In this document: piece by piece, positions 9,801 through 64,000 of the stretch
Position numbering within the stretch: the stretch's first letter is position 1
Layout: each line of letters starts with the position of its first letter
Assembly (NCBI RefSeq): GCF_009389715.1
Contig: NW_024068240.1
Coordinates: 62,001-126,000 of the forward strand
Origin: Phoenix dactylifera
Taxonomy: Eukaryota > Streptophyta > Magnoliopsida > Arecales > Arecaceae
DNA: 64,000 bases
Reading direction: 5' to 3'
Notes under the pieces: generated by a model
Seen by the model: the letters and a program-made list of their open reading frames with translations, nothing else
Database searches by the model: none
Told to the model about the DNA's origin: nothing
Position numbers and translations under genes: made by a program

Positions 9801-10492
9801 TCATCTTTCTTTTTAAAGCTTCAGGCCTTTTAGATGCTGTCCTTCTGTTTCTTCCAAGAGACCATGATTTCATGCAATTCTACACTGTTGCAGAAGACCC
9901 CAGCAGGTTCAGAAGCTTTCTTATGGACTTCGGCTATCCCCGTCTTCCAAGTAATGCAAGAGATGTGTGGCCGACCATTAGGGCTGGCGATCGGGTGGCT
10001 AGCAACCAATGGCAGGGGGGTTTAGACCCTCCAACTAGTGCAGTTATGGTGCAGGGCCCCCACCAATACTTGCAGGGTTCTGCAGCGGGGGGGCTCTTCT
10101 CTTCAGCAGAGGTTCCGCCGGGTGAGTGTCTTTCGGGAGTCTCTGACTCCAGCTGTGCTCTCTCTCTTCTGTCAACTCAGCCATGGGGCAGCAATTCTAC
10201 CAGAAACAGAGCTCCAGTGATCCCAGCAAGCAGTAGCTTTGATGGTGTCCCGACAGCTCAGTCAGTCGCCAACGATTACATGAACAGTCCCTGGGGTCTC
10301 AGGGGGCATGGAGGTAGGAGCAGCTCACATGAAATCCATCACGACATAGGACTAGGACCGGTCACCGAGGCCGGTAGTAGTCAGTTTTCAGGCGAACTTG
10401 AGTTAGCTCTGCAGGGGAATGGCCAATGCCTGGACCACGGCTCAGACAGAGCATACGACGGTTCAGGACATGTGATGCACTGGTCTCTGTAG
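2406..10492 (+). CDS. SPL14: SBP-box transcription factor, SPL9/SPL14 type, miR156-regulated
   Basis: Nuclear DNA-binding regulator of phase change, shoot branching and panicle or inflorescence architecture in the SPL9/OsSPL14 group. Exons are 2406-2788, 9643-9779 and 9894-10492 (1119 nt, 372 aa); every junction is GT-AG and phases agree. The N-terminus carries the group signature [14 protein letters not shown] (about residues 20-33), then Gly and Ser runs. The SBP domain starts near Cys82 (CQVEGC...YYCRHKVC...FCQQCSRFH) and is split by intron 1 inside the second zinc site, as usual for the family. Exon 2 supplies the bipartite nuclear signal [17 protein letters not shown]. Exon 3 has the conserved [18 protein letters not shown] and [13 protein letters not shown] blocks and ends ...HWSL. 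Intron 1 is very long (6,854 bp) and intron 2 is 114 bp. The exact orthologue (SPL14 or SPL17) is not certain. Confidence 0.95.
3840..4085 (-). mobile_element. Degenerate tRNA-derived SINE in SPL intron 1
   Basis: Read on the minus strand, this block aligns by eye along its length with the SINE at 12278-12508. Shared points are a CCACCGA...ATGGT start, a GGCAAG segment followed by a decayed B-box (GGCTTTGATTATC), a GACCCT block and the 3' core GTGGGGTTAGAGCCCCTCC. A low-complexity TA-rich tail lies at 3840-3868. No clear target-site duplication was found, so the limits are approximate. Confidence 0.55.
6550..6986. repeat. Diverged ~210-bp tandem duplication with (CT)n(GT)n microsatellite in SPL intron 1
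   Basis: Two successive copies, about 6550-6757 and 6758-6986, share the same order of blocks: GAGCA...ATTGATT, GGATTTGAA(T/C)CAAAA, TTCATG, ATGAGT, a dinucleotide repeat, GAACAGAATC(G/A)CA and TTGATGA. In copy 1 the microsatellite is a short GT run near 6673-6696. In copy 2 it has expanded to a long CT run followed by GT/GC (about 6862-6912). Confidence 0.75.
10155..10174 (+). promoter_or_regulatory. miR156/miR157 target site in SPL exon 3
   Basis: The 20-nt stretch reads GTGCTC then TCTCTCTTCTGTCA and encodes part of [11 protein letters not shown]. It pairs with canonical plant miR156 at every position except one, the usual mismatch of the SPL family. This indicates post-transcriptional repression in juvenile tissue. 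The assignment rests on established knowledge of the miR156-SPL module. Confidence 0.95.
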
Positions 10493-23000: not shown

Positions 23001-26000
23001 CATGGAATCATGAGAAATTCTGCATTCTATATCATGTCAAATACATCTGTAAGTGGTAGGAATTCTGTATACTCTATCACAAGCGTGATCCATACTCCCA
23101 TCATAGGGTCTAAGGGTCCTTGTTGATAGAAACTGGCCAGTTTGTGACAAAGCCAGTCTCTTTCTTGGTTATATAGGATACCTGGCAACTATATCAGCAT
23201 CTTATGTTAGTCTATGTATAAGATTTAATTACAACTCAAACTTGTGAGGGGTTTGCATCCTTGAATACAGTTTTCTGTTTGGTGATAACTTACCCAATAA
23301 CATTTCAAATAAAAAGGTTTGTCCTAGAACTGTCAAAGGGCATTAGCTCAGATGCCTACTTTATAGAGGATACTCTGGATCACTAGTCATTGTACTTAGA
23401 AATAGATACACTGCTTAATAACGGTGATGCTGATCTTTTACATGCTTTCAATTAAATTAGCATATGCAGTATTCACAATTTACAGAGAAACATACATGAA
23501 GGACTGAAGAAAAGGGATTAAAACTTTATCGCATACTTTCCTTCGGAATGCTGAGAAACTTATACGCATCCATACAAATATATATTTACACAAAAACAAG
23601 CACGTCTATACATGCATATATATCTACGCATGAAGTGAGTTTATATATGCATCATCATGTATGTACATATATGCTGGTGTGGGTATTTGCACAAATGGGT
23701 ATATGCATGGATGTGTATGCATGAATGCATGCATATGCATGGATGTGTATGCATGAGTGCACGCATATACATGTGCATGCATACATACATCTATGTATTT
23801 ATCCAAATATATATGAACTTCACAAAATACCTCAAACAGATCATCAAGTATCTTATTCCTGTATTCAGTCTCCAAAAATTGGCTTCTCTCTACAACTAAA
23901 CTTTGCTGATGTGGTGATTCAGCTGGACTTAATAGTTGACTTTCCTTGCCTGCATCTGCTGTAACATCAAGCACATCCACTTGAGGTTTTTCAATGCCCA
24001 TATCCCAACATATTTCTGACTCAGAAGTTCCAGAGGCCACACCCTCCATTCTATTTAACAGCATGTGATCAGATGCCACGCTGTCAGCATTTTCAGACCC
24101 CTTTAAATCTATATTAGAATCAATTATTTCATAAGAACCAAAATCATTGCCAGATTCTTCAGGTTGTTCCACAGCACCAATATCCCAATCGATTTGTGTA
24201 TCATCTACCAAAATGTTCCAGTCAATACCATCCGTGGCAAGATTGGTATCAGGTAGCTGCTTTCCTGTCACAGGATAAGTTGAGTCTGGCTTCGACACAT
24301 CATTCAGAGAATTTTGGACCACTGGAGAAACAGACACATTAAGAGAGGGAGGATTTTCAAGAAGGTGCCTCAGATTTTGTAGCACATCACTTGGGATTTT
24401 CTGCAGTCACAACAACATAAAATTAATCACGCATAACACCGCCAAGCACAAAGTGCATGTCAACTACTAATCTGCAATATAAAAGGTGTACTGGAATGTG
24501 AGCTCCCGCCCATAGCAATGAAGCATTTAAGTAATCAATATTCAGCCGTTGTTATAAACATACCTCTTTCTCGGTGTGAGCATCTCTGACAAAGTTTCTA
24601 TAATACTCCATGGCCCTTAAAATGAGATCACTATTAAGGACTTGCAATAATTTGCTGAATGTGGATGGAAGAGACTTTGCTGTCTCCAAAAGCTCTAATC
24701 TCACATTTTTCCCCTATAAAAGTCAAGTAAAAGTTGTTTAACCTATCTTTAACAACCCAAAGAACATAACCAATTACAGAGTGCAGAACATGGCCATATT
24801 GGATGACAAGAGACAGCCATGTCCAAAAGCTGCCATTAAGGAATGCATACCTGCAATCCAAGCTCTTGACAAGCTTCAGAATATTTAGCTGCAGAGAGAG
24901 CAGCATTTCTCTTGATATCAGCCTCCTTACGATCAAGTTCTGCTAGTTGTTGCTGAATCTTCTGCACCTGCTTTTTCTGGTAGGGACTTCACCCAGCATG
25001 ATGATCAGTGAAATTAGTTATAGTGCATTGATTATACTCCAAACTTACCAAACTCTGGCATGAAAATAAAACATACATTTCATAGTTAACATTCTGAACC
25101 ATTATCTGAGCAGCCTCTCCAAGAAAGATATGGTCCTTCTCAAAGGAGCGCACTATGTTTTCCCATTCACCCTGCCATAAGATCAATCACGAAAAAGGTT
25201 TACCAAAAGAACTGGAAAAACTCAATCAAAAAGTGGAATTCGGGTTTCAGTGATCTTACAGCAGAACCTGATAAGCGTCCAAAAATATTACGACTTTCTG
25301 TAGTTGAATTCAAGAGAATATTGTATATTTTCTTTGCTTCCATGTACCCAATAACTGAAAATATAATGTAGGTATTTAAAAAAAAGAAGTTTTAGAAATT
25401 TATAATAAATAGAACAAAATACGCAAGACTTAGATGACCACATATGTTAACATCTTTTCTGGGAAAATCAGTTAACGTATATCTCAAGCATAAAAAAATA
25501 AGAGAAGAATAGAGGAAACCCAGCTGTAAAATAGCAGAGGCAATGGTATTTGAAAAGAATGTAATGAATAAATCAAAAGAAAAACACAAGTCGGAAGTTC
25601 CTCAATGTACCAGTGCTAACAAGAAAATCAAGAGGTATGATTGCCATGCATCCCACAAGACTGTGTCGCTCATATTTGTTAAGAAATTTATCATAATATC
25701 AAATTCTGTCCTCATAAACTATGGTTTTCAGGGACTCTGGTTATCCCTCTATCTACATATCCAGACACATGCCACATGGTGGTGCCAAACTTTCTAATCC
25801 TCTATGATGATGTGACGAATACAGCAGAAAAAAAAATCTCCTAGGGAAGGTTAAAAAGTTTCATTTTTGGGATGATACACTTGTAATCAATGCTCAATTT
25901 CCTCACAAGTCTACATTCTCTACCAAGACTGCCAAACATAAGATTCCCACAATGACCCTTCAAAAGAAGGCTTGCACCAAAGTATTCCATATTGTTTCTT

Positions 26001-38724: not shown

Positions 38725-41451
38725 ACTTTTTTGGAGTGAGACATATTTACTGGCAAAATGAATGGGGCAGCGGGTTGCATAATCTCCTTTGTGGCTGACT
38801 ATTTCGGTTAATTATAGTGCTACAACGTATAATATTTGCAATGTGCTAGCAATAATAGTGGGCTACTGCGCATATCTAAACAATTACTGATGCAGGAGAA
38901 GACAAGGAGATGGTGACGTCATTGGAGTATGGGTGTGGCCAGCCTCCTCGTAGCCTTTGCTTTCTAAAATCCTAGTAGTTGGGCGCCTCCAAGAACGTGT
39001 TTGGTTCGCATAAATTTTTTTTTAAAAATAAATTATTTTTTAAATATTTTTTAAAAAATATAATTTTATTATATATAATTAATAATAAAAAAGATGTACT
39101 TTCTAGAATAGTTGATATTTGATTGATCATATATTTTTCAAAAAAAATAAAATATTTATTATATTTTTAATAAAAAAGATCTTATTCATAAATTTTAATA
39201 GTCGAATGATATTTTTAAAAAAATATACTAATTCTCAAAAATAGCTTTTTTATGCTTCCATAATTTTTTTATATAAAATATAAAATTTTTATTTTCATAA
39301 AAATTAATCAAATAAAATATATTTTTATTTTTTTTCCGACCATATTTTTTTCTCTTCTTTTACGACGAGCCTAACGAGTGGTAAATAAGCAAACAGGGTT
39401 TCTTGCCATGCCGGGGACGAAGATGACACCCTGTCCCGGCCGTTGGCTGGTTTGTGCCACCAAACGCGAGAAAAGTGGCGTGGGGGAAACGCTGACGCGC
39501 TCCTCCGGTTGGCCAAGCCAAAAGGTGCTTCCAGACGCCGCTTTCTGATTGGGGCTTCTGGCCCACCCCCGGACAAAAAGAAGCAAGCTGTGGGTATCGT
39601 TCTCATTCTCTGAAACGTTTGGTGCAGCCAAAAGGATGCGTGTCGGCGAGAGCAAGCGTGATTCCACGGCATCAAAATTTATATAATTCTAGCTAAAATT
39701 TAACCCACGTGCAATGTCTGTGAATGAAAAAATAGGTAATGTTACCCAAGTTTTGTTAATATTTTTAAATTTTTTTATTATTGTAACGTGATATATACAT
39801 ACGGCTATTTTTGGATAGGGAAATTTTTTATTATTTTCCAGCGTTTTAAAGAAAATGATGACTAAATTGAGGGAGAAAGTTATTTAAGAATAGAGGTGTT
39901 TGTGAATGGAGTATAATTATGTTGCATGAGGATATTATCTTAAGGATTTTTAAGTGGATGTGTCATGGCGTTCGCTCTAAGACTCTTTTAAAATCATATA
40001 TGCACTCGAATCAAATATAGATGCAATATAATTCAATATTGTAGTTTGCAAATCTTTTATAATATATTGATTTCCCACTTGGTTATAAGGACAGAAGTTG
40101 CGAAAAAAAAGTTCCGAGAATAAATATAAAAACAATTTGATGAAGCTTCAAAGTTTCAACTAGAATGGCAACCCGGATCTCACCAAGCCAAAATCTAATC
40201 AAACGGCGCACGAGTTATTTATTTATTATGATGTCATCCTTTGGCTATGACTGTTTCCCACACATTTCGTTGCCCTTGTAACTTACCTAACACGTTTTAG
40301 AGTCTCTTAAAGTAGGCGCCTTTATTGATCTACTTTATTTTATTTTATTTTATTTTTTCGTCCCCCATCAACGACGTGCAAAAGGAGAAGCCCACTGTAA
40401 AAGACCCGTCAACCTACGTGTGGTAAGCCCGTATTGCCATCGAAAGTTCCACCTCTCCCAGCTAAAGCGGTTCCCACAAACATCAAGCGGATAACTACAC
40501 TGATAAACTTCCACGTGCCCCAACTACATCCAATAAAACGTTGCCACTTAATCAGGCTGGTTGAAGTGAAATGCCAGCTAAGAGAAACTTCCAGAAAGAA
40601 AAAGAGCAAGATGTCGGAATGTAGTCACAGATATTACTATGCGACCGGCGGTACGGTGTCTCGGAGCAAAAACCATCTCATCCGTCCCTTCGCGTGGCTC
40701 TCAGATCTGTGCCCCCGCATAGAAGTTATTACGCTGACAATCCCGTATCTTATAGTTGCCATAAAATCGAAGTGGATCGGTCCAATTCGAAAGTTCACAA
40801 GGATGCCCTTCGTCACATCCAGCGCCAGCTGGCAAGTCAAGCATTTCTCCTCGTCTGACAGAAGTGCCACTGACGCAACACCATCCAAGAGTCCACCGAA
40901 CCAACGGCCGGGGATGGCCGATGCTCACGAATAATTCCATCATTTTTTTTTTTGCTTTTTTTTTTCAACGGATGGGGACATCGGGAGGGAGCCGCATGCG
41001 CACAGCCACCATCGGCAATGTCAAAATCAATATCCAACGATCTCGACCGTCAAACACGGTAGGCCAGGAGTCTATCTGATGGTCCATGGTCCAAGGACCA
41101 TCAGCCAGTAGAATTTAGCTCACTCCATGAGGGACCCACTCCCCACGGAAGCGATCTACCATCTTACGGATGAAGGACGCACGCGTCGGATTCCTGTCCA
41201 GTACAAGGGCAATGCCGTCATTTGAAATATGAGGGTATTTTAGTAATTCAAAGAAGAATCGAGCCGGAAATGTGCTACTTTTCCTCTCTGTTTTTTTTTT
41301 CTCATGCCGAGTAATTAAATCCATCAACGTATGCGCTCCCCGCGTTCCCGCCGTCGGACGCCCATTTACCGTGTTAAAACCCCCTCGTCTCTTTCTCTCT
41401 CCAACAACTCTGCTCGAAAAGAAGAGAGAGAAAGCTTCGAGCTCCCCCCTA
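38725..41451. other. Intergenic and promoter region of the O-fucosyltransferase gene
   Basis: 39005-39345 is an extremely AT-rich block beginning GTGTTTGGTTCGC, possibly a MITE relic. A (TTTTA)n run lies at 40330-40355. From about 40380 the sequence is more balanced; overlapping open frames on both strands between 40409 and 41110 share no domain and I take them as chance. A CTCTCTCC-rich leader at 41390-41405 precedes the start codon. Confidence 0.45.
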
Positions 41452-44219
41452 ATGGCGAGATTGAAGACGAAGCAGCTCTCGTACATCGCGGTCCCCTCTC
41501 AGATCATCCACTCCCTGTCCTCCTCTACTGTCCAGAACCTGCTTCTCTCCCCAAAGAAGGCCTCGCGGTCGGGGAACCGCCTGTTCTCCCTCACCGTAAG
41601 CCCAAGGTTTTTTCTTTCGTTCCTCTTTCTCTTCGCTCTGGTCGGAACGCTACGGATTGGGTTCCGCCTCAACCTGCTCCTCCCCTTGCCCCCCATGCCC
41701 TGCTCCACCTTCGGCGAGGTGGCCGCGGCGACGGCGGCACGGATGGCTGATTCGGCGCTGCCGATCGCGGCGGCGGGAGGAGGGGAGTGGAGGGAGGAGT
41801 TCTGGAAGCAGCCGGAGGGGATGGGGTACCGCCCGTGCCTGCAATTCGGAGACGAGTACCGTCGGGAGAGCGTGGCGGTGCGGACGAACCGGAGGAAGTA
41901 CCTCATGGTGGTGGTCTCCGGCGGGGTTAACCAGCAGCGGAACCAGATCGTCGACGCGGTGGTCATCGCCCGGATCCTCGGCGCCGCCCTCGTCGTCCCA
42001 ATTCTCCAGGTCAACGTCATCTGGGGAGACGAAAGGTACTATCATCGTCGCCGGAATCCCAATTGAAGCCTAAATTCTAAATCACTCGTCTTTCCGTTCC
42101 TCGTCTTCCTTCTATCCCCTCTCGAATCGAACTTCTATCCAAAAATAGAAGTGCTTAGATATTTTTCTCCATATATTTGGGAAAAGAATCTAGTGCTTTT
42201 TCCGCCTTAAATTCGATGATTTTTTGGATAATTCGCCAAATCTAGCATTTGGAAACAGCGTTTCCATTTCCAGTCATTGATGAGTCAATTGTTGCTAAAG
42301 TTCTGTTCATGGTTTAAGAGACACTTTTTGTGCTCGGCATCGGCTCACCGCTGTAAGCTTACCGATGGAAAGATTTGTTTGGTGAGAGATCTAACATTTT
42401 CGTTGTCGTGCGTGTTCTGGGCAGCGAGTTCTCGGATATATTCGATTTGGAGCATTTCAAGAGCGTTCTTGCGGACGACATCCGGGTTGTGTCGTCGCTG
42501 CCGTCGACACATATAATGACGAGGCCAGTGGAGGAGAAGCGGACGCCGCTCCATGTTTCACCACGTTGGATTCGGTCGAGGTATCTCAAGAGGGTGAGTC
42601 CTGCTATTACTCATATTGCAATGTGATATTGTTTGATTAAAACCAATTTTAAAACTTCGGCCAAACGCATTGTTTAAGTCCGGAAGATATTAGTTGGCAA
42701 GGAACTGCATTATTTAATATCTTATTGAATTAGAGAAGCTGTCTGAACTAATGTTTAATCCTTAGTTTCTAGTTGGTGATCACTATTGCTGAGGAATTGT
42801 ATTATTCTGTAGCCTATGGAACTTGTTGGCTGTCGTTCTTCTTCAACCACCAACATACAATTAGCAGTCGATACGATCAAAAGAATCGCATTGTCCATTA
42901 GATAATTAGCATCAAAGAGGTTTTTGTACTGATATCTAATAAATGGGGAATCCGTAACAAAAGAGTTGCAATAATTGGATTGTCGTGATGATCTTGTTTC
43001 TACACCATTTCTTAAAAGTTTAGCAGAAAGATTTCACTGTATTCTATTAGTGTGTTGATTTAGTTTATGTATGATGGAGGCCTTAGAAGGAATTTGGGTT
43101 ACATGGATAACAGAACTGGTCATTTATATTCTGTGTTCTCCCTTTGCAGCTGAAAAGAGAAGGGGTTTTGCTTCTGCGGGGCTTGGATTCCAGGCTGTCA
43201 AAAGACCTTCCGCCTGATCTCCAAAAGCTCCGATGCAAGGTAATCAGAGTCTCCAAGGCTTTTGTTTTCTTTGCTAGGTTTAATCCGCTTTAAACTGCCC
43301 ATTGTAATCGAACATATAATTATTTGCGGTTCCTCAAAATGATTCTAGGTCGCATTTCAAGCGTTGAGGTTTTCGGCCCCCATACTGGAGTTGGGCAACA
43401 AGCTCGCCGCGAGGATGCGGAGCCAGGGGGCATACCTTGCACTACATCTGCGAATGGAGAAGGATGTATGGGTGAGAACTGGTTGCCTTCCTGGCTTGAG
43501 CCGTGAGTATGATGAGATCATTCAAGAAGAAAGGAAGCGCAGACCAGAGCTCCTCACTGCAAGGTCCAACATGACCCACCATCAGCGCAAGCTCGCTGGC
43601 CTCTGTCCATTAAATGCACAAGAAGTCACCAGGTAAGGGCTGCGTGCATTTTGTTGGAGCTAGCACAAACCCATACTTGTATCTTGACTATCTAACGTGA
43701 GATTCTTGTCAAAATTTGTCGTCTATCAGATTGCTTAAAGCACTGGAAGCCCCGAGAGATGCGAGGATATACTGGGCTGGAGGGGAACCATTTGGGGGAC
43801 CAGCTGCCTTGCAGCCGCTAACCAGAGAGTTCCCACATTTCTACAGCAAGGAGAATCTATCCCTGGCTGGTGAACTGGAACCATTTGCCAATAAGGCTTC
43901 TCTTCTTGCTGCTGTCGACTACATAGTTGGCGAGCGGAGCGATGTCTTCATGCCTTCCCATGGGGGGAATATGGGACATCTGATGCAGGGGCACAGGGCA
44001 TTTGCAGGGCACAAGAAGTTCATAACCCCAAACAAGCGGCAGATGCTCCCTTACTTCCTCGACACCTCACTTCCGGAATCCGAGTTTAAACGAATCATAA
44101 AAGAACTGCATAAGGGATCCCTGGGGCAGCCAGAATTCAGGAAGCTTGGGAGGGATGTCACAGCCTACCCGGTTCCTGAGTGCATGTGTAACAGTACAAA
44201 CACGGGCTCATCAATTTAG
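41452..44219 (+). CDS. O-fucosyltransferase family protein (GT106-type, PF10250)
   Basis: Plant GDP-fucose protein O-fucosyltransferase-like enzyme, expected in the Golgi as a type II membrane protein acting on cell-wall or secreted glycan acceptors; the true acceptor is unknown. Exons are 41452-42035, 42425-42593, 43150-43239, 43349-43632 and 43730-44219 (1617 nt, 538 aa), all GT-AG with closing phases. The start MARLKTKQLSYIAVPSQ is followed by a hydrophobic anchor near residues 53-67 (FFLSFLFLFALVGTL). Family motifs are VVSGGVNQQRNQIVDAV (start of the catalytic fold), ALHLRMEKD (HLRMEKD at 314-320), IYWAGGEPFGG and MPSHGGNMGHLMQGHRAF (from about 450). It ends ...YPVPECMCNSTNTGSSI. The chosen Met is the first in frame that precedes conserved sequence; the frame stays open 60 codons upstream, so a longer N-terminus cannot be excluded. 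Confidence 0.94.
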
Positions 44220-50983: not shown

Positions 50984-52274
50984 TGTTGGGGGGAAATCCC
51001 CAAGTCATACTGCCACGGAGGCGCTCGGCCAAGAAGCGCCGACCGGAAAGACGCTCGGCCAAAGAGTGCCGACCAGAGAGCACCAACCAGAGGGGTGCTC
51101 GGCTAGAGAGCGCCGATCCGAAAAGATGCTCGGCCCAAGAGTGCCGACCGGAGCGCCAAGAGGCGCTCGGACCAACCAACGACCAAGTAGGGATGCTCGG
51201 CCAGAAAGAGCCGACCAGAGGACGCCGACCAGAAAAGCGCTCGATTAGAGGGCGCTGACCAGAAAGGAAGGAGCGCGAAATAAAGGCGCTCGGCTAGAAG
51301 GTGCTCGACCAAAAGGCGCCTACCAGAAGCATTAGAAGCGACCCCGCCACAGGGCGCCCCATTGGGCGACCAGCTCGGCTCGGCACTCCTGCCGAGCCGA
51401 TTGCCATGACCAAACGTTCAACTCCTGCCTAACCCCCTGAGGGACTTGACAACTCCACTACAACCTGCCGCTATCTCCAAGCCGTCAAGGCATAAGATCT
51501 CCGCAGGTATTTGGCACGACCTGCCATTAATGCATGAGACCCCCTCAAGTCTCCGATGCGCTCAGTCATTTAATGAACACGGCTTGAGACGATCTCCGGA
51601 TCACTGAACCATCAAAGCGTATGGCTCTCCCTGACCGCCGGTTCATTCGGTAATAAATGCGCTTACCATCCATGGACCCTGGACCTACCACGGCCGGCGG
51701 TTCAACCACTCCAACAGGTCCGATCGACCGTGACAACTCCCTGATTCCGGTCTGAGTCGGCCTTATCTTCCACTACGCCATTAATGGGCCAAATCGTGCC
51801 CAATTATTGCAAAAGAGAACAAACTCCCTGTCACCTCCCGGGCAACATAAAATCCCTCTATAAAAGGGACCCGGGGAGGAAAGAAGAGAGGGGGACCGGA
51901 ACACAAGTAAACAGCACAGACCCAAGGGAGGACATGATCCTCTTCATCTTCTTTATCTTATCCAAATGCTCTCCTGCCTGCTCTCTCCACATATTCCCCC
52001 TCTGACTTAAGCATCGGAGGGCCGGCGCCGGGGAGCCCGGCCACCGGCTTTTTTGCAGGACAGGACAGGACTGGACGCACCACCCCTCTTTACTCTCTTC
52101 CACCCCCCAGCGGAGGATGCGGCCGACCGGCGCCCCGCCGTCCGCCCTCTCACTCCGCTCTCTCATCCCCACGGAGGACACAGTCGGCCGGCGCACCGCC
52201 GTCCGCTCTCTCAGGCGGCGGAGCTCCTCCTCCCCCGGCTTCGCGGCGGCCCCCGGGTCCAATTTCCAGCAACA
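50984..52274 (+). repeat. 5' LTR of gypsy copy X
   Basis: Begins TGTTGGGGGGAAATCCCC and ends AATTTCCAGCAACA (TG...CA) directly before the primer site. U3 contains a degenerate array of GCTCGGCCA(A)AGAG(C/T)GCCGACC(A/G)GA-like units over about 51018-51335. The predicted R start is near 51891. The last ~385 bp recur inverted at 56830-57214 and, in part, directly at 57211-57380 and 62027-62261, which confirms the LTR end. Confidence 0.88.
51859..51866 (+). promoter_or_regulatory. LTR TATA box
   Basis: TATAAAAG in the 5' LTR, followed by a GC-rich stretch. An independent clue to the start site is the inverted R-U5 copy at 56830-57214, which stops at the LTR base equivalent to about 51891, 32 bp downstream: the spacing expected from TATA box to RNA 5' end. 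Confidence 0.75.
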
Positions 52275-52294
52275 GTTGGCGCTAGAGGAAGGGC
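52275..52294 (+). other. Primer binding site of gypsy copy X
   Basis: Immediately after the LTR terminus comes GTTGGCGCTAGAGGAAGGGC. TGG at the start of a primer site pairs with the CCA tail of a tRNA; I cannot name the tRNA with confidence. The same sequence follows the fold-back LTR tail at 57381 in the nested copy. Confidence 0.75.
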
Positions 52295-52308
52295 CCGAGT
52301 TCGCTGCC

Positions 52309-55300
52309 ATGAAGCTAAGAAGCAAAGGGGCTTCCAATGCCTCTCGATGTCCTCCACCCAGTCCTGAGCATTCCGTCCGGAACTCACCACCTCCGGCCGA
52401 GTCAACCCCTCAAGTTCGGCCGGAGCAGTTTGATGCCCTGGTGCAACAAGTGCAAGCCTTGGCTACCGCTGTCCAAAGCTTGCAACCCAGGGGCATCCCA
52501 ACGGCACCGCCTCCTCCGGCTCCAGCTCAACCAGAGCCTCCTACAAGCGGACTTCCCCTTCGAGGTCAGGACTCCCAAGTCCAGGCCTCCCTCTGGAGAG
52601 AGCACCCAGCCAGAGGCTACGGAGGCTGGCCACAGCCTTCAGAAGCTGAGTCGGTTCCAGGGCAACCTGCGCTCGAACGAACCGCTGCAGCGATCCTCCA
52701 GAATGATGAACTCGACAAGAAGGTCGAGAAGCTGGAGCGCCAAATCCAGGCACTCCACGGGAGAAAATCAGGACGTGATAACGACTTCGAATTCACTACG
52801 AAGTCACCCTTCTCCCCGGAGATCGAAGATGAACCGGTCCCACTACGGTTCAAGATGCCCCAGGTGGAGCCCTACAACGGCAAGGCTGATCCCCTTGACC
52901 ACCTGGAGAGTTACCGGGTCTTAATGGCCCTACAAGGAGCCTCGGAGGCCATGATGTGCAAAGCTTTTCCGGCGACACTCCGAGGGCCAGCCCGGCTTTG
53001 GTTCACCGGGCTGAAGCCGAGTACTGTCTCTTCCTTTGAGCAGCTCGGCAGACAATTTGCTGGCAACTTTGCCGCCAGCCAGCCCCAGTGGCGGACATCC
53101 GACTCCCTCCTTGATATCAAACAAAAGGAGGGAGAATCCTTCAAGGAGTACTTGGACCGGTTCACCGCCGCAACATGGGAGGTCCGGGAGCTTGACCAGT
53201 CAATCGCCATGTCGGCGTTGAAGACTGGAGCCCGGTCCTACAAATTCTTCTTCTCAATCGAGAAGAATTTCCCCACGGACCTCACCGAAATGTTCGCTCG
53301 GGCGCGGAAGTATGCCAAGGCAGAAGAAGCCGTGGCGGTTAGGCGGGGCAGGACCGAGCAGAACCCCAAGAAGAGACGTCGCGAGGAGCGCGGCCAGCCC
53401 AGAAGCCCGCCTCCGCGACGAGCTAAGAATCCGCCCCGCCCGAAGAGTCCACCCCGGTTGAGAGGACCGCCACAGCAGAGATCACCACTCCGCCCGAGGT
53501 TCCCACTGCAGGCCCGTGCACCCGAAGGGAGGTATGAAAAGTATACTCCCCTCAATGCTCCTCGGGCTGAAATTCTCATGGAGATTGAGAGTCGGGATTG
53601 CATCCGGCTCCCACCTCCGAAGCCAAACACCAGAATCCGGCGTGATCTCCGGAAGTATTGCCGTTTCCACCGGGATCACGGTCATGATACCGAGGATTGT
53701 TATCAGCTCCAAAATGAGATCGAAGCACTCATTCACCGAGGGGTGCTCGATCGGTTTGTGCAAGGCCGGCGTGAAGGGAAGAAGCCAGCCGAAGGAGCAG
53801 CATAGCCTGAAGGTTCAAATGCCAACAGGCCCATCGCCGGCGTCATCAACACTATCCGAGGCGGAACCTCGGCTGGGGAAGCTTCAGGGGAAGAAGCCTC
53901 CTCGAAGCGCCCGCGCACCTCTGAAGCCATCTCCTTCTCAGATGATGATCAAGAGGGAGTCGAAACTCCCCATGATGATGCCGTGGTCATCTCCATGATC
54001 ATAAATAAATTTGATGTAAAACGCATTCTGGTTGATAATGGAAGCTCGGCAAATGTTTTGTATTTTGGTGCTTATTGTAAAATGGGGATGACAAAAGAAC
54101 AGCTACGGAGGATGAATGCTCCGCTAGTTGGATTCACTGGGGATTCAGTCCCAGTAGAGGGCGAGATCGACCTTCTGGTCACAGCCGGGCTCGCCCCTCG
54201 TGAAAGTACCGTGGGTATGAGCTTCCTTGTAATACGCCTGCCCTCGGTCTACAACGCCATCCTCGGAAGGCCAGGACTCAACGCCCTCCGAGCAGTGGTC
54301 TCAACTCACCACCTGCTGATGCGATTCCCTACCAGCCAGGGAGTCGGTGAAGTTCGAGGGGACCAAATGGTGGCAAGACGATGCTACCTAGCGACCCATG
54401 AAGCAAGACAACCAGCCGAGGTGCCTGCCCCAACGACTGACCAGCCCTCAACTGAAGTTATGGAGGCACGGGTCAACCCCCAGAAAGAGCGGGTAGAGCC
54501 TGGTGAGTTGTTAATTCAAGTTCTCTTACGAGAGAACTTTCCCGAGCTAACCGTGCAGGTCAGCTCTGGCCTTGGCAAACACGAGAGGAGTCGCCTCGTC
54601 AACTTCCTACGGGACAATATGGATGTCTTCGCATGGTCGCCTGCAGACATGCCAGGGATAGATCCGGAGGTCATGGTCCACCGGCTTCAGGTGAAGCCGA
54701 CCTGCAAGCCCGTGCGACAAAAGAAGCGAGGCGCCGCCCCTGAACGACAACGAGCAGCAGCCGAGGAGGTCGGCAAGCTCCTTGAAGCCGGCTTCATCCG
54801 GGAGATATCCTACCCGGAATGGCTCGCCAATGTGGTCCTCGTCAAGAAAGCCAGCGGGAAGTGGCGTATGTGCGTGGACTACACCGACCTGAATAAAGCC
54901 TGCCCGAAGGATAGCTTTCCACTTTCCAGCATCGACCAGCTCGTGGACTCCACCTCGGGTCACGAGCTGCTGGCATTCATGGACGCCTTTTCCGGATACA
55001 ACCAGATCCGCATGGCGCCAGAAGATGAGGAAAAGACAGCCTTCATCACCGACGGGGGAACCTACTGCTACAAAGTGATGCCATTCGGCTTGAAAAACGC
55101 CGGAGCAACTTACCAAAGGCTGGTCAGCCGGATCTTCAAAGACCAAATAGGCCGAAACATGGAGGTCTACGTGGATGACATGCTGGTGAAAAGCAAGGTG
55201 GCGCAAGACCACATAGCCGACCTCAATGAAGCATTCTCCACACTCCGAAAGTACCAGATGAAGCTCAACCCAGCTAAATGTGCATTCGGGGTCACCTCCG

Positions 55301-56829
55301 GCAAATTTCTCGGCTTCATCATTACACAACGAGGAATTGAGGCCAATTCAGAGAAGATCCGAGCCCTCCAAGAGATGACGCCTTCCAGGACGGTCAAAGA
55401 GGTACAGCGGCTTACGGGCCGAGTGGCAGCCCTCGGGAGATTCATCTCCCGCTCGGCCGAGCGCTGCCTTCCATTCTTTGCAGCCCTCAAGAAGCCGAAG
55501 AACTTTTTGTGGTCGGACGAGTGCCAGCAATCTTTTGAAGAGCTCAAGCACCTACTGGCTTCCCCTCCCCTGCTCATGAAGCCTCAACAGGGTGAGCTCC
55601 TCTACTTGTATCTAGCTGTCTCCCCTGTAGCAGTAAGCTCGGTCCTGGTCCGAGAGCAGGGCAAACTCCAGAAGCCAGTATATTATACCAGTCGGGTCTT
55701 AAGGGACGCCGAGACCCGATACTCCAAGCTTGAGAAGACCGCCTATGCTTTGGTCATCTCGGCTCGGAGGCTCCGACCCTACTTCCAAGCTCATACAGTG
55801 GCTGTGCTGACTGACCAGCCGGTCAAGCAGATCCTGCAAAGATCAGATCGTGCGGGTCGGATCACTAAATGGGCCATTGAGCTCGGGGAATTCGACATCG
55901 AATACCGGCCCAGACCGGCGATCAAAGCACAAGCACTCGCAGACTTTATAGTCGAGTGCACCATACCGGATGAGGTCGAGCCTGAACCTGAGCCACCGGT
56001 GGAGCAGACCCCGAGTTTGACATGGACTCTGCATGTCGATGGCTCTTCAAACTCGGGAGGTAGCGGAGCAGGACTTATCCTCACCAGCCCGGAGGGGGTG
56101 GTCGCCGAGCAAGCCTTGCGCCTCGAGTTTCCCGCTTCCAATAATGTGGCGGAGTACGAGGCGCTTGTCGCCGGGCTCAAGCTAGCCAAGGAGCTAGGAG
56201 TGAAGGACTTGAAGGCCTTCAGTGATTCTCAGCTCGTCGTCAACCAAATTATGGGCGACTTCGAAGCCAGAGACCCGACCATGCAGAAGTATCTTCAGAA
56301 GGTACGGAATCTCATCTCGACCTTGGAATCCTTTCATATTCAACAAGTTGCCAGGTCGGAGAATCTCAGGGCCGACCAGCTATCAAAGCTGGCGTCCTCT
56401 CGCATGAGCGAGCTTCCCAAAGAGGCAGTGCTGGAATATCTCCAAAAGCCCAGCACAGACGAGCCCGAGCAGACCCTCTGCACCGAGTTCGAGCCAAGCT
56501 GGATGGATGAACTCATCAGTTATCTGCAAGACGAAACCCTCCCCGCTGATGAACGAGAGGCTCGCCGAATCAAGCGCCTCGCCACCCGGTACATACTATA
56601 CGAAGGAAAGCTCTATCGGAGATCCTTCACCTCTCCCCTCCTCAGATGCCTTCGCCCAACGGAAGCTAATTATGCCCTGCGCGAAGTCCACGAAGGGATT
56701 TGTGGAAACCATCTGGGAGGGCGAGCATTGGCCCACAAAATTCTACGCCAAGGATACTATTGGCCGACACTCCAGAAGGATGCTATGGGCTTCGTCCAAA
56801 GATGTGACCGGTGCCAAAGGAACGCCAAT
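52309..56829 (+). pseudogene. gag-pol of outer gypsy copy X, first part
   Basis: A single frame of 1507 codons from ATG 52309, broken only by one TAG at 53803-53805 where the nested copy has CAG. Gag (about residues 183-360) has the retrotransposon gag fold (ATLRGPARLWFTGLKP), a Pro/Arg-rich region and a CRFHRDHGHDTEDC knuckle. Protease has VDNGSSAN (Asn in place of the usual Ser or Thr of DSG/DTG). Reverse transcriptase has KWRMCVDYTDLNKACPKD, FMDAFSGYNQI and YVDD (about residue 954). RNase H follows, then a second RNase H (LHVDGSSNSGGSGAGLIL... from about 1243). The integrase HHCC finger ends CDRCQRNAN at the insertion point, so the catalytic core lies beyond the nested copy. Confidence 0.92.
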
Positions 56830-57214
56830 TGTTGCTGGAAATTAGACCCGGGGGCCGCCGCGATGCCGGGGGAGGAGGAGCTCCGCCGCCTGAGAGGGCG
56901 GACGGCGGTGTGCCGGCCGACTGCGTCCTCCGTGGGGATGAGAGAGCGGAGTGAGAGGGCGGACGGCGGGGCGCCGGCCGGGCCGCGTCCTCCGCTGGGG
57001 AGTGGAAGAGAGTAAAGAGGGGTGGTGCGTCCAGTCCTGTCCTGTCCTGCAAAAAAGTCGGTGGCCGGGCTCCCCGGCGCCGGCCCTCCGATGCTTAAGT
57101 CAGAGGGGGAATATGTGGAGAGAGCAGGCAGGAGAGCATTTGGATAAGATAAAGAAGATGAAGAGGATCATGTCCTCCCTTGGGTCTGTGCTATTTACTT
57201 GTGTTCCGGTCCCC
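56830..57214 (-). repeat. Inverted R-U5 segment at the left end of copy Y
   Basis: Reverse complement of LTR positions 52274 down to about 51891, matching minus-strand strong-stop DNA from primer site to RNA 5' end. It ends GGTCCCC, and the sequence then turns back to direct orientation. Its internal GGGG at 56997-57000 can pair with that terminal CCCC. The arms 56830-56996 and 57215-57380 are then complementary and almost equal in length (167 and 166 bp). Confidence 0.9.
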
Positions 57215-57380
57215 AGCGGAGGACGCGGCCGGCCGGCGCCCCGCCGTCCGCCCTCTCACTCCGCTCTCTCATCCCCACGGAGGACGCAGTCGGCCGGCAC
57301 ACCGCCGTCCGCCCTCTCAGGCGGCGGAGCTCCTCCTCCCCCGGCTTCGCGGCGGCCCCCGGGTCCAATTTCCAGCAACA
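57211..57380 (+). repeat. Direct U5 tail of copy Y, fold-back arm
   Basis: CCCCAGCGGAGG... to ...CCAGCAACA, followed by the primer site at 57381. It shares with the inverted arm a private variant (GGCCGGCACACC, against GGCCGGCGCACC in the 5' LTR of X and in the right-end tail of Y). This is what is expected if it was copied from that arm. Confidence 0.88.
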
Positions 57381-57414
57381 GTTGGCGCTAGAGGAAGGGC
57401 CCGAGTTCGCTGCC

Positions 57415-60400
57415 ATGAAGCTAAGAAGCAAAGGGGCTTCCAATGCCTCTCGACGTCCTCCACCCAGTCCTGAGCATTCCGTCCGGAACTCACCACCTCC
57501 GGCCGAGTCAACCCCTCAAGTTCGGCCGGAGCAGTTTGATGCCCTGGTACAACAAGTGCAAGCCTTGGCTACCGCTGTCCAAAGCTTGCAACCCAGGGGC
57601 ATCCCAACGGCACCGCCTCCTCCGGCTCCAGCTCAACCGGAGCCTCCTACAAGCGGACTTCCCCTTCGAGGTTAGGACTCCCAAGTCCAGGCCTCCCTCT
57701 GGAGAGAGCACCCAGCCAGAGGTTACGGAGGCTGGCCACAGCCTTCAGAAGCTGAGTCGGTTCCAGGGCAACCTGCGCTCGAACGAACCGCTGCAGCGAT
57801 CCTCCAGAATGATGAACTCGACAAGAAGGTCGAGAAGCTGGAGCGCCAAATCCAGGCACTCCACGGGAGAAAATCAGGACGTGATAACGACTTCGAGTTC
57901 ACTACGAAGTCACCCTTCTCCCCGGAGATCGAAGATGAACCGGTCCCACTACGGTTCAAGATGCCCCAGGTGGAGCCCTACAACGGCAAGGCTGATCCCC
58001 TTGACCACCTGGAGAGTTACCGGGTCTTAATGGCCCTACAAGGAGCCTCGGAGGCCATGATGTGCAAAGCTTTTCCGGCGACACTCCGAGGGCCAACCCG
58101 GCTTTGGTTCACCGGGCTGAAGCCGAGTACTGTCTCTTCCTTTGAGCAGCTCGGCAGACAATTTGCTGGCAACTTTGCCGCCAGCCAGCCCCAGCGGCGG
58201 ACATCCGACTCCCTCCTTGATATCAAATAAAAGGAGGGAGAATCCTTCAAAGAGTACTTGGACCGGTTCACCGCCGCAACATGGGAGGTCCGGGAGCTTG
58301 ACCAGTCAATCGCCATGTCGGCGTTGAAGACTGGAGCCCGGTCCTACATATTCCTCTTCTCGATCGAGAAGAATTTCCCCACGGACCTCACCGAAATGTT
58401 CGCTCGGGCGCGGAAGTATGCCAAGGCAGAAGAAGCCGTGGCGGTTAGGCGGGGCGGGACCGAGCAGAACCCCAAGAAGAGACGTCGCGAGGAGCGCGGC
58501 CAGCCCAGAAGCCCGCCTCCGCGACGAGCTAAGAATCCGCCCCGCCCGAAGAGTCCACCCCGGTTGAGAGGACCGCCACAGCAGAGATCACCACTCCGCC
58601 CGAGGTTCCCACTGCAGGCCCGTGCACCCGAAGGGAGGTATGAAAAGTATACTCCCCTCAATGCTCCTCGGGCTGAAATCCTCATGGAGATTGAGAGTCG
58701 GGATTGCATCCGGCTCCCACCTCCGAAGCCAGACACCAGAATCCGGCGTGATCTCCGGAAGTATTGCCGTTTCCACCGGGATCACGGCCATGATACCGAG
58801 GATTGTTATCAGCTCCGAAATGAGATCGAAGCACTCATTCGCCGAGGGGTGCTCGATCGGTTTGTGCAAGGCCGGCGTGAAGGGAAGAAGCCAGCCGAAG
58901 GAGCAGCGCAGCCTGAAGGTTCAAATGCCAACAGGCCCATCGCCGGCGTCATCAACACTATCCGAGGCGGAACCTCGGCTGGGGAAGCTTCAGGGGAAGA
59001 AGCCTCCTCGAAGCGCCCGCGCACCTCTGAAGCCATCTCCTTCTCAGATGATGATCAAGAGGGAGTCGAAACTCCCCATGATGATGCCATGGTCATCTCC
59101 ATGATCATAAATAAATTTGATGTAAAACGCATCCTGGTTGATAATGGAAGCTCGGCGAATGTTTTGTATTTTGGTGCTTATTGTAAAATGGGGATGACAA
59201 AAGAACAGCTACGGAGGATGAATGCTCTGCTAGTTGGATTCACTGGGGATTCAGTCCCAGTAGAGGGCGAGATCGACCTTTTGGTCACAGCCGGGCTCGC
59301 CCCTCGTGAAAGTATCGTGGGTATGAGCTTCCTTGTAATACGCCTGCCCTCGGTTTACAACGCCATCCTCGGAAGGCCAGGACTCAACGCCCTCCGAGCA
59401 GTGGTCTCAACTCACCACCTGCTGATGCGATTCCCTACCAGCCAGGGAGTCGGTGAAGTTCGAGGGGACCAAATGGTGGCAAGACGATGCTACCTAGCGA
59501 CCCACGAAGCAAGACAACCAGCCGAGGTGCCTGCCCCAACGACTGACCAGCCCTCAACTGAAGTTATGGAGGCACGGGTCAACCCCCAGAAAGAGCGGGT
59601 AGAGCCTGGTGAGTTGTTAATTCAAGTTCCCTTACGAGAGAACTTTCCCGAGCTAACCGTGCAGGTCGGCTCTGGCCTTGGCAAACACGAGAGGAGTCGC
59701 CTCGTCAACTTCCTACGGGACAATATGGATGTCTTCGCATGGTCGCCTGCAGACATGCCAGGGATAGATCCGGAGGTCATGGTCCACCGGCTTCAGGTGA
59801 AGCCGACCTGCAAGCCCGTGCGACAAAAGAAGCGAGGCGCCGCCCCTGAACGACAACGAGCAGCAGCCGAGGAGGTCGGCAAGCTCCTTGAAGCCGGCTT
59901 CATCCGGGAGATATCCTACCCGGAATGGCTCGCCAATGTGGTCCTCGTCAAGAAAGCCAGCGGGAAATGGCGTATGTGCGTGGACTACACCGACCTGAAT
60001 AAAGCCTGCCCGAAGGACAACTTTCCACTTTCCAGCATCGACCAGCTCGTGGACTCCACCTCGGGTCACGAGCTGCTGGCATTCATGGACGCCTTTTCCG
60101 GATACAACCAGATCCGCATGGCGCCAGAAGATGAGGAAAAGACAGCCTTCATCACCGACGGGGGAACCTACTGCTACAAAGTGATGCCATTCGGCTTGAA
60201 AAACGCCGGGGCAACTTACCAAAGGCTGGTCAGCCGGATCTTCAAAGACCAAATAGGCCGAAACATGGAGGTCTACGTGGATGACATGCTGGTGAAAAGC
60301 AAGGTGGCGCAAGACCACATAGCCGACCTCAATAAGCATTCTCCACACTCCGAAAGTACCAGATGAAGCTCAACCCAGCTAAATGTGCATTCGGGGTCAC

Positions 60401-62035
60401 CTCCGGCAAATTCCTCGGCTTCATCATTACACAACGAGGAATTGAGGCCAATCCAGAGAAGATCCGAGCCCTCCAAGAGATGACGCCTCCCAGGACGGTC
60501 AAAGAGGTACAGCGGCTTACGGACCGAGTGGCAGCCCTCGGGAGATTCATCTCCCGCTCGGCCGAGCGCTGCCTTCCATTCTTTGCAGCCCTCAAGAAGC
60601 CGAAGAACTTTTTGTGGTCGGACGAGTGCCAGCAATCTTTTGAAGAGCTCAAGCACCTACTGGCTTCCCCTCCCCTGCTCATGAAGCCTCAACAGGGTGA
60701 GCTCCTCTACTTGTATCTAGCTGTCTCCCCTGTAGCAGTAAGCTCGGTCCTGGTCCGAGAGCAGGGCAAACTCCAGAAGCCAGTATATTATACCAGTCGG
60801 GTCTTAAGGGACGCCGAGACCCGATATCCAAGCTTGAGAAGACCGCCTATGCTTTGGTCATCTCGGCTCGGAGGCTCCGACCCTACTTCCAAGCTCATAC
60901 AGTGGCTTTGCTGACTGACCAGCCGGTCAAGCAGATCCTGCAGAGATCAGATCGTGCGGGTCGGATCACTAAATGGGCCATTGAGCTCGGAGAATTCGAC
61001 ATCGAATACCGGCCCAGACCGGCGATCAAAGCACAAGCACTCGCAGACTTTATAGTCGAGTGCACCATACCGGATGAGGTCGAGCCTGAACCTGAGCCAC
61101 CGGTGGAGCAGACCCCGAGTTTGACATGGACTCTGCATGTCGATGGCTCTTCAAACTCGGGGGGTAGCGGAGCGGGACTAATCCTCACCAGCCCGGAGGG
61201 GGTGGTCGCCGAGCAAGCCTTGCGCCTCGAGTTTTCCGCTTCCAATAATGTGGCGGAGTACGAGGCGCTTGTCGCCGGGCTCAAGCTAGCCAAGGAGCTA
61301 GGAGTGAAGGACTTGAAGGCCTTCAGTGATTCTCAGCTCGTCGTCAACCAAATTATGGGCGACTTCGAAGCCAGAGACCCGACCATGCAGAAGTATCTTC
61401 AGAAGGTACGGGATCTCGTCTCGACCTTGGAGTCCTTTCATATTCAACATGTTGCCAGGTCGGAGAATCTCAGGGCCGACCAGCTATCAAAGCTGGCGTC
61501 CTCTCGCATGAGCGAGCTTCTCAAAGAGGCAGTGCTGGAATATCTCCAAAAGCCCAGCACAGACGAGCCCGAGCAGACCCTCTGCACCGAGTTCGAGCCA
61601 AGCTGGATGGATGAACTCATCAGCTATCTACAAGACGAAACCCTCCCCGCTAATGAACGAGAGGCTCGCCGAATCAAGCGCCTCGCCACCCGGTACATAC
61701 TATACGAGGGAAAGCTCTATCGGAGATCCTTCACCTCTCCCCTCCTCAGATGCCTTCGCCCAACGGAAGCTAATTATGCCCTGCGCGAAGTCCACGAAGG
61801 GATTTGTGGAAACCATCTGGGAGGGCGAGCATTGGCCCACAAAATTCTACGCCAAGGATACTATTGGCCGACACTCCAGAAGGATGCTATGGGCTTCGTC
61901 CAAAGATGTGACCGGTGCCAAAGGAACGCCAATGTTCAGCGCCGGCCCTCGGCTCCTTTGACTTCTATCAGCTCCCCTTGGCCTTTTGCCCAGTGGGGAA
62001 TTGACATCCTCGGGCCATTTTCACCGGCCACCGGT
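57415..62035 (+). pseudogene. gag-pol of nested copy Y, broken and truncated in integrase
   Basis: Same product as copy X and nearly identical to it, from ATG 57415. Breaks are TAG at 57673-57675 (CAG in X), TAA at 58228-58230 (CAA in X), and one-base deletions near 60332 and 60828. Between 58231 and about 60330 gag, protease and reverse transcriptase are read in one frame without interruption, which shows that the ancestral element had a fused gag-pol. The coding part ends just after the integrase finger, around WGIDILGPFSPATG, where it is joined to LTR sequence. Confidence 0.9.
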
Positions 62036-62261
62036 TTTTTTGCAGGACAGGACAGGACTGGACGCACCACCCCTCTTTACTCTCTTCCACTCCCCAGCGG
62101 AGGACGCGGCCGGCCGGCGCCCCGCCGTCCGCCCTCTCACTCCACTCTCTCATCCCCACGGAGGACGCAGTCGGCCGGCGCACCGCCGTCCGCCCTCTCA
62201 GGCGGCGGAGCTCCTCCTCCCCCGGCTTCGCGGCGGCCCCCGGGTCCAATTTCCAGCAACA
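62027..62261 (+). repeat. Direct U5 tail at the right end of copy Y
   Basis: Matches the 5' LTR of X from GGCCACCGG(C/T)TTTTTTGCAGG to CAGCAACA. The join to integrase lies in GGCCACCGG, which exists both in the LTR (about 52037-52045) and in the integrase gene (62359-62367 in X). Together with the inverted left end it gives copy Y 235-bp terminal inverted repeats. Confidence 0.88.
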
Positions 62262-62266
62262 CCAAT

Positions 62267-63169
62267 GTTCAGCGCCGGCCCTCGGCTCCCTTGACTTCTA
62301 TCAGCTCCCCTTGGCCTTTTGCCCAGTAGGGAATTGACATCCTCGGGCCATTTCTACTGGCCACCGGGCAAAGGAAGTTCCTGGTCGTCTCCATCGACTA
62401 TTTCACAAAGTGGGTGGAAGCTGAGCCCCTCGCCTGGATCACTGAGCAGAAGATGCGGGATTTCGTCTGGAAGTCCATTATCTGCAGATTCGGGCTTCCC
62501 CGCATCCTTATCTCTGACAACGGTCGCCAGTTCGACAACATCCACTTCAGGGAGTTCTGCTCCGAGCTTGGCATTGACCATCGCTTCACCTCGGTCGCGC
62601 ACCCTCAGACGAACGGAGAAACCGAGGTAACAAACCGTACTATTTTGCAGGGTCTCAAAGCCAGGCTCGACAAATCCAAAGGACAATGGGTCGAAGACCT
62701 ATACAATGTCCTGTGGGCTTACCGGACCACGTTCCGCGTCCCCACCGGCGAGACCCCCTTCAACCTAACATATGGGACGGAGGCCGTCATTCCACTAGAG
62801 ATTGGGCTCCCCTCTCCAAGAGTCGAGCACCACGATGCCAGCTCCAACTCTTCGCAGCTCAGAGGCAACCTCGACCTGATCGAGGAAACAAGGGAGGTCG
62901 CCCGAGTGCGTATGGCAAGGTACCAGCAAAAGACAGCTCAGTACTACAACGCCAGGGTCAAAGTCAAATCTTTCAGACCAGGGGACCTTGTCTTCAGAAG
63001 AGCTGAAGCCTCCCGACCAACTGAGCAGGAGAAGCTGGCCCCGAATTGGGAAGGACCATACCGAGTCACGCGCATCCGCCGACCCGGGACTTATAAGCTA
63101 GAGTCCCTAGACGGGACTCCCATTCCGCGGAGTTGGAGCTCTGAAAATCTCCGCGTGTACCACCAGTAG
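62267..63169 (+). pseudogene. gag-pol of outer copy X, second part: integrase core and C-terminus
   Basis: Resumes the X frame after the nested element. The DDE residues are visible: Asp in SIDYFTKWVE, Asp in ISDNGRQF and Glu in NGETEVTNRT. A GPY-type C-terminal module follows (FRPGDLVFRR...NWEGPYRVTRI), and the frame ends SSENLRVYHQ with a stop at 63167-63169. A TAG at 62327-62329 replaces the Trp codon present in copy Y (AQWGIDILG). Confidence 0.92.
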
Positions 63170-63508
63170 AACTCTAAGGGGTTCCCCATTATTCAACCAT
63201 TGAATTTCATTCCATGAATTTCATTTCACAATAAACTGATGGTTTGCATGCTTATTCCAAGCTCACCAATTCTCTTGATTATCTCATGCCATCAGGATTA
63301 TTCTTCCCTGACCACGGTTGGGATGCCCCGGTGCCTCGGGATAATGGAGTACCTACGCGGGGTCCCTGAAGATGTTCGTGAGTTCGTGGCGCGCTCTCCA
63401 CCGGCAACGAGCTCGGCTCATTCTTCTACCCTGACCACGGTCAGGATGCCCCACCACAACGGGATGCCCTGATTCGTCGGGATGGCCCGAGACGTCGGGG
63501 TGCGGTCT
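63170..63508 (+). other. 3' untranslated region of gypsy copy X, proximal part
   Basis: Non-coding between pol and the tandem array. It contains repeated CTGACCACGGT(T/C)(G/A)GGATGCCCC motifs at about 63308 and 63430 and further GGGATG(C/G)CC variants, apparently older relatives of a second short repeat. Confidence 0.6.
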
Positions 63509-64000
63509 TAAGTGACCGGACGAGCTCGACTCGTGCTCCATCGACTATTGAGTAGCGGTCCTCTCTGACCGGACGAGCTCGGCTCGTGCTCCATCGACTA
63601 CTGAGTAGCGGTCCTCTCTGACCGGACGAGCTCGGCTCGTGCTCCATCGACTATTGAGTAGCGGTCCTCTCTGACCGGACGAGCTCGGCTCGTGCTCCAT
63701 CGACTATTGAGTAGCGATCCTCTGACCGGACGAGCTCGGCTCGTGCTCCATCGACTACTGAGTAGCGGTCCTCTGACCGGACGAGCTCGGCTCGTGCTCC
63801 ATCGACTACTGAGTAGCGGTCCTCTCTGACCGGACGAGCTCGGCTCGTGCTTCATCGACTATTGAGTAGCGGTCCTCTGACCGGACGAGCTCGGCTCGTG
63901 CTCCATCGACTACTGAGTAGCGGTCCTCTCTGATCGGACGAGCTCGGCTCGTGCTCCATCGACTATTGAGTAGCGGTCCTCTCTGACCGGACGAGCTCGG
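63509..64000 (+). repeat. 53-bp tandem array in the gypsy 3' UTR
   Basis: About nine and a half units starting with AGTAGCGGTCCTCT at 63551, 63604, 63657, 63710, 63761, 63812, 63865, 63916 and 63969. The spacing is 53 bp, or 51 bp in units that lack one CT. Each unit carries the perfect hairpin ACGAGC-TCG-GCTCGT. The array runs off the window, so its full length and the 3' LTR are unknown. Confidence 0.95.

Follow-up and report, generated by a model that had tools for sequence, protein, structure and literature searches.

In the 64,000-nucleotide stretch of DNA analysed here (the window), we identified a 5,432-bp Ty3/gypsy copy (56830-62261) nested in the integrase gene of a 98.7% identical copy. 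On sequence evidence, we consider it probable (roughly 70%) that this insert preserves in the genome a reverse transcript which was aberrant yet completed, and which arose from self-primed minus-strand strong-stop DNA. Two aberrant junctions, a processed U5 end on either side, a target-site duplication (TSD) with its empty site and the lack of any detectable U3 are all visible in the sequence.

The outer element is a Ty3/gypsy-type LTR retrotransposon, in which domain matches revealed gag and a pol order of RT, RNase H and then integrase. Its 5' LTR (50984-52274, + strand; TGTTGG...GCAACA) is directly preceded by ATGGC, contains a TATAAAA box (51859-51865, +) and can be divided, on an inferred split, into U3 (50984-51890) and R-U5 (51891-52274). 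The internal part up to the insertion point (52275-56829, +) holds the primer site, gag and pol, with matches to PF03732 gag, RVT_1, RNase H and Integrase_H2C2, and the rest of the integrase and the downstream region follow at 62267-64000 (+), with an rve core match in 62414-63169. The window corresponds to C593:62001-126000 of genome G000 (773 Mb, 2,391 contigs), and the outer 3' LTR lies beyond it at C593:131206-134117 (L012 5206-8117), split by an insertion of about 1.6 kb. The outer element has two direct LTRs and a 5-bp TSD, ATGGC being present on either outer side, the second time at G000:C593:134118-134122. Within the outer 3' LTR, positions 636-639 are found on both sides of the 1.6-kb insertion, a possible 4-bp duplication. 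Downstream of the outer integrase, a tandem array occupies 63510-64000 with a copy spacing of 51 or 53 bp. Elsewhere in the window, exon-like frames at 9629-10492, 23624-24385 and 41272-42066 carry SBP, CDK5RAP3 and O-FucT domains and likely belong to host plant genes. A protein search with gag (7,992 candidates scored) returned at least 10 proteins at E ≤ 0.001; an organism was named for 5 of 10, all of them plants (Phoenix twice, Elaeis, Magnolia and Sesamum), and the closest named matches among those listed were from Phoenix dactylifera (65 and 54% identity) and Elaeis guineensis (44%). Gag, RT, RNase H, integrase, the 5-bp TSD and the normal outer LTRs are shared with plant Ty3/gypsy elements, whereas the insert differs from these in having two U5 termini and no detectable U3.

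The insert is bounded by perfect copies of CCAAT (56825-56829 and 62262-62266), a 5-bp match expected by chance with p of about 0.001. It interrupts the outer integrase where the H2C2 zinc-binding match (residues 897-948 of frame 53983-57015) ends, before the rve core match. The insert carries its own gag-pol copy (57400-62023, +), which shares 98.7% identity with its outer counterpart across 4,548 bp, is truncated in the integrase and has frames more split than those of the outer copy. This copy retains the unfilled target CCAAT (61929-61933), and the two flanks when joined (30 + 24 nt) reproduced the insert's own target copy at 61904-61957, save for the last base. The empty site was likewise found in all three sibling elements read (L013-L015), so the unfilled target called for by the initial annotation is present both in the insert's own integrase and in 3/3 siblings. 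With the outer U3 as query, the best match in the insert reached only E = 0.17. Direct LTRs would give the insert a U3 end and a U5 end; both of its termini are U5. The initial annotation had placed a same-family copy in the integrase between perfect CCAAT repeats, beginning with an inverted R-U5, ending with a direct U5 and lacking U3, and these features were borne out. The U5 identity of both ends thus stood, but the right end proved to be a partial R plus U5 on a truncated integrase, which had been overlooked.

At the left end, the insert begins with an inverted R-U5 (56830-57214, - strand; begins TGTTGCTGG), which we interpret as minus-strand strong-stop DNA. This arm was 97.1% identical to the reversed outer LTR segment 51891-52274 (L001) and measured 385 bp against 384 in the outer LTR, owing to one extra C. 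It closes with TCCCC (57210-57214, +), the putative strong-stop 3' end and fold-back junction, and contains GGGGA (56997-57001, +), the putative self-priming site. The junction is followed by a direct U5 (57215-57380, +), apparently copied from 56830-56996, and then by GT and the primer-binding site (PBS) TGGCGCTAGAGGAAGGG (57381-57399, +; far border approximate). As expected of self-priming, the 3' end of the arm was complementary to the start of the U5 copy, and U5 was followed by the normal GT and PBS. The positions given in the initial annotation for the terminal CCCC (57211-57214) and the internal GGGG (56997-57000), with direct U5, primer site, gag and pol following, were confirmed, the complementary segments being TCCCC and GGGGA. 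The arm covers the outer LTR from the U5 terminus back to 51891, which is base 33 from the first T of the TATA box, and the G-run in the outer LTR begins at base 32 from the same T. Judged by TATA spacing, the fold-back point thus probably coincides with the place where R should start. A pyrimidine-purine initiator is expected at a transcription start, and the G-run at R has none, which counts against this putative RNA start. ARAGORN detected no tRNA within the 64-kb window.

To assess how the strong-stop DNA might fold, we modelled the 385-nt inverted arm as single-stranded DNA at 25, 37 and 50 °C. The predicted fold paired the 3' CCCC with GGGG at 56997-57000 with a probability of 0.976 at 37 °C, 0.988 at 25 °C and 0.931 at 50 °C, while nine other GGGG registers each remained at P < 1e-3 at all three temperatures. 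Among 150 dinucleotide shuffles, in which the last 9 nt were kept fixed and any register was counted, none reached 0.976, 5% exceeded 0.9 and 23% exceeded 0.5. The internal GGGG, described initially as correctly placed for priming, is therefore also the site on which the model places the 3' end. Arms shortened by one or two C still paired at the site (0.95 and 0.94) and would yield an identical product, and with one additional C the 3'-terminal pairing fell to 0.035 at best; we accordingly dropped folding as proof of the exact 3' end, since the shorter ends pair too. The two outer-element LTRs favoured the same site as well (0.83 and 0.93 with four G; with three G, 0.45 and 0.83), a solo LTR did so less (P 0.15-0.63), and four more distant family LTRs reached at most 0.08 (0-0.08). 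These results suggest that the predicted preference is a property of the subfamily and not a conserved trait; the four distant LTRs leave a conserved family trait unsupported. The solo LTR (L011 321-1613; G000:C32) belongs to the same subfamily, is 98.3% identical and has AATGT directly on both sides. In the distant LTRs (L005-L008), part of a GC-rich U5 repeat is missing and the R start is longer, and their strong-stop folds prefer other G-runs.

At the right end, the integrase runs into R through CCGGCCACCGG (62024-62034, +), and the polypurine tract (PPT) and U3 are lost. The overlap between the outer integrase and the LTR is exact over 9 nt, or 11 with 62025 included. It is followed by a partial R plus U5 (62035-62261, +) that ends in GCAACA. 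Bases 62021 and 62025 of the insert depart from the outer integrase and from all three sibling integrases; 62025, inside the overlap, matches the LTR only. An LTR-type base at this position is what the transfer of a minus-strand DNA end from the LTR would leave, and a mutation would look alike. Two bases count against such a transfer, since neither 62021 nor 62035 agrees with either of the parent sequences seen; at 62035 the insert departs from the LTR copies. Taken by itself, the right junction could be a later deletion. Since the PPT and U3 were lost here, a self-primed hairpin may have provided the plus-strand primer that was lacking: with a plus-sense PBS at its end, it would replace PPT priming, which would be impossible on a PPT-less minus strand.

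Both ends of the insert bear the marks of integrase. CCAAT stands directly against TGTTGC on the left and GCAACA on the right, and neither end retains the GT that adjoins U5, in line with 3' processing. The initial annotation had held that integrase accepted a product with TGTTGC/GCAACA ends, and two processed U5 ends, the 5-bp TSD and the empty site agree with this. In the available text of PMC3790719, U5-end mimics were joined in concert in a strand-transfer assay, and the sequenced concerted Rev-A products bore 5-bp duplications. The target (56823-56829 region) also resembles the primer site, its CGCCAA being identical to six consecutive bases at the start of the PBS complement. The inverted repeat thus seems 7 bases longer than the insert, and the resemblance is already present in the unfilled siblings; 73 of the 63,994 7-mers in the window lie within one mismatch of CGCCAAC. 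Homology-guided joining at CGCCAA, raised by the 6-base match, was disfavoured because 56829 keeps the target's own T and not the C of an unprocessed end, which favours ordinary integrase joining.

We propose the following origin for the insert. Minus-strand strong-stop DNA, primed by tRNA, would have been copied to the RNA 5' end in R. Once RNase H had removed the RNA, the 3' C-run of this DNA would have folded back onto GGGGA within the U5 complement of the same strand, and extension across U5 and the terminal part of the tRNA primer would have produced a hairpin ending in a plus-sense PBS. A second strong-stop DNA, halted early in R, would have jumped via CCGGCCACCGG into integrase RNA and given rise to a minus strand without PPT and U3. 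The hairpin PBS could then have annealed to this PPT-less minus strand and primed the plus strand, and completion of the other strand would have opened the hairpin. Finally, integrase would have trimmed the U5 ends by two nucleotides each and linked the two to the outer element, duplicating 5 bp of the target. We infer the order of these events, the start of R and the participation of one molecule as opposed to two. The stop at the putative R start, the fold-favoured site, the PBS after the copied U5, the processed U5 ends and the TSD against an empty site support the self-priming interpretation put forward in the initial annotation. Its statement that the fossil displays every step was overstated: the traces of self-priming are there, but the second jump at 62024-62034 had been missed and the RNA start is a deduction.

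Divergence among the copies was low. Self-priming would make the two arms identical at first, and hence closer to each other than to an independently made copy. We compared the inverted arm (I), the direct U5 (D) and the right-end U5 (T), and the results showed 2 substitutions and 1 indel in 166 aligned bases between I and D, 2 substitutions in 166 between D and T, and 4 in 225 between I and the right end. The insert differed from the outer internal region at 55 of 4,553 positions, the outer 5' and 3' LTRs differed at 7 of 656, and the outer LTR and the solo LTR at 20 of 1,291. With all divergences at about 1.1-1.8%, the copies appear recent and close in age, and the arms are too short for the order of events to be read from them.

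The alternative nearest to intramolecular priming is annealing in trans, in which a strong-stop DNA used its 3' end as a primer on a different minus strand of the same particle, at the U5 complement of that strand, all else being alike. Elements of this kind carry two RNAs per particle, and annealing in trans would give the same sequence product as a fold-back. The available portion of PMC4668388 also speaks of inter- or intra-annealing. Nevertheless, the intramolecular fold alone is predicted to place the 3' end on the site (P 0.98), and at the single polarised U5 site D agrees with I and not with T. That site is a CpG change that recurs in the outer 3' LTR, which weakens the shared I-D variant as proof that I served as the template for D. 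We regard annealing in trans as unlikely.

Host repair might have end-joined a double-stranded strong-stop piece to a 5'-truncated cDNA via 4-5 nt before integration, and the TCCCC overlap at the junction would suit this. Such joining is quite improbable, however, as it requires a random break in U5 to coincide with the folding-preferred site and one piece to end at the expected R start as well. Reshaping of a normal insertion by later deletion, inversion or gene conversion is a very improbable source of the whole structure: the right junction alone fits a microhomology deletion from integrase to 3' LTR, but inverted and direct U5 termini lying exactly against the TSD copies would demand breakpoints at the very ends of the insert. 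Library preparation can generate inverted repeats, yet two substitutions and one indel separate the arms, and a 5-bp duplication against a proven empty site is not readily created in this way, which makes an assembly or library artefact extremely improbable. Two further candidates were ruled out. Autointegration conflicts with the position of the fold-back junction, which is within R/U5 instead of at a CA/TG terminus, and separate insertions of an inverted and a direct element conflict with the single TSD pair that bounds the whole unit.

The initial annotation had named self-priming by retroviral reverse transcriptases as an in vitro activity, and a matching HIV-1 reaction is described in the available text of PMC4668388. 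There, the 3'-CCC of strong-stop cDNA was inferred to prime on GGG in U5, with extension up to the 5' end of the primer, one self-primed cDNA was isolated, and the products were called abortive; nucleocapsid reduced strong-stop self-priming in vitro. The likeness to our locus lies in a 3' C-run placed on a G-run in the U5 complement and in extension to the primer's 5' end. In contrast to the abortive in vitro product, a 5.4-kb product was here apparently completed and integrated with a TSD. As the HIV-1 reaction had already been inferred in that source, the new part would be this completed, integrated product. TAR-dependent self-priming, which nucleocapsid suppresses (Guo et al. 1997, as cited in PMC4668388), is alike in competing with the first strand transfer, but here a predicted long-range R-U5 pairing would place the 3' end instead. 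HIV-1 proviruses with asymmetric LTRs, as presented in the accessible part of PMC9278108, offer a parallel in which a reverse-transcription error, with a second RNA copy proposed, led to an integrated, defective provirus; instead of an inverted U5, those proviruses have an intact 5' LTR and a deletion in the 3' LTR.

We also looked for further cases. No integrated U5/U5 fossil appeared among the literature matches listed, which comprised titles and abstract openings, mainly of open papers. A search of the G000 contigs (best 40 of 1,992 candidates scored) gave at least 50 matches, merged into 41 places, among which no second inverted-U5 fossil was present; each of the three opposite-strand pairs within 6 kb among the matches listed included the inverted arm of the insert itself. 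Neither viral_contigs nor genome_contigs contained an exact match to the U5/PBS patterns (0 in each), the latter being bacterial and archaeal only and uninformative on plants. We suggest, tentatively, that self-primed strong-stop DNA might be a usable alternative plus-strand primer that rescues transcripts without PPT and U3 as integration-competent U5/U5 DNA, and that such U5/U5 insertions could recur in plant genomes, where the lack of a complete pair of direct LTRs may keep them from being annotated.

These results indicate that synthesis of a self-primed product can run to completion, that integrase can accept its two U5 ends and that the product can then be inherited, so that a supposed dead-end side reaction can leave a lasting insertion. 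The locus also provides a searchable signature, an inverted R-U5 facing a direct U5-PBS, with a TSD and no U3, which makes the in vivo frequency and the sequence rules of self-priming testable across genomes.
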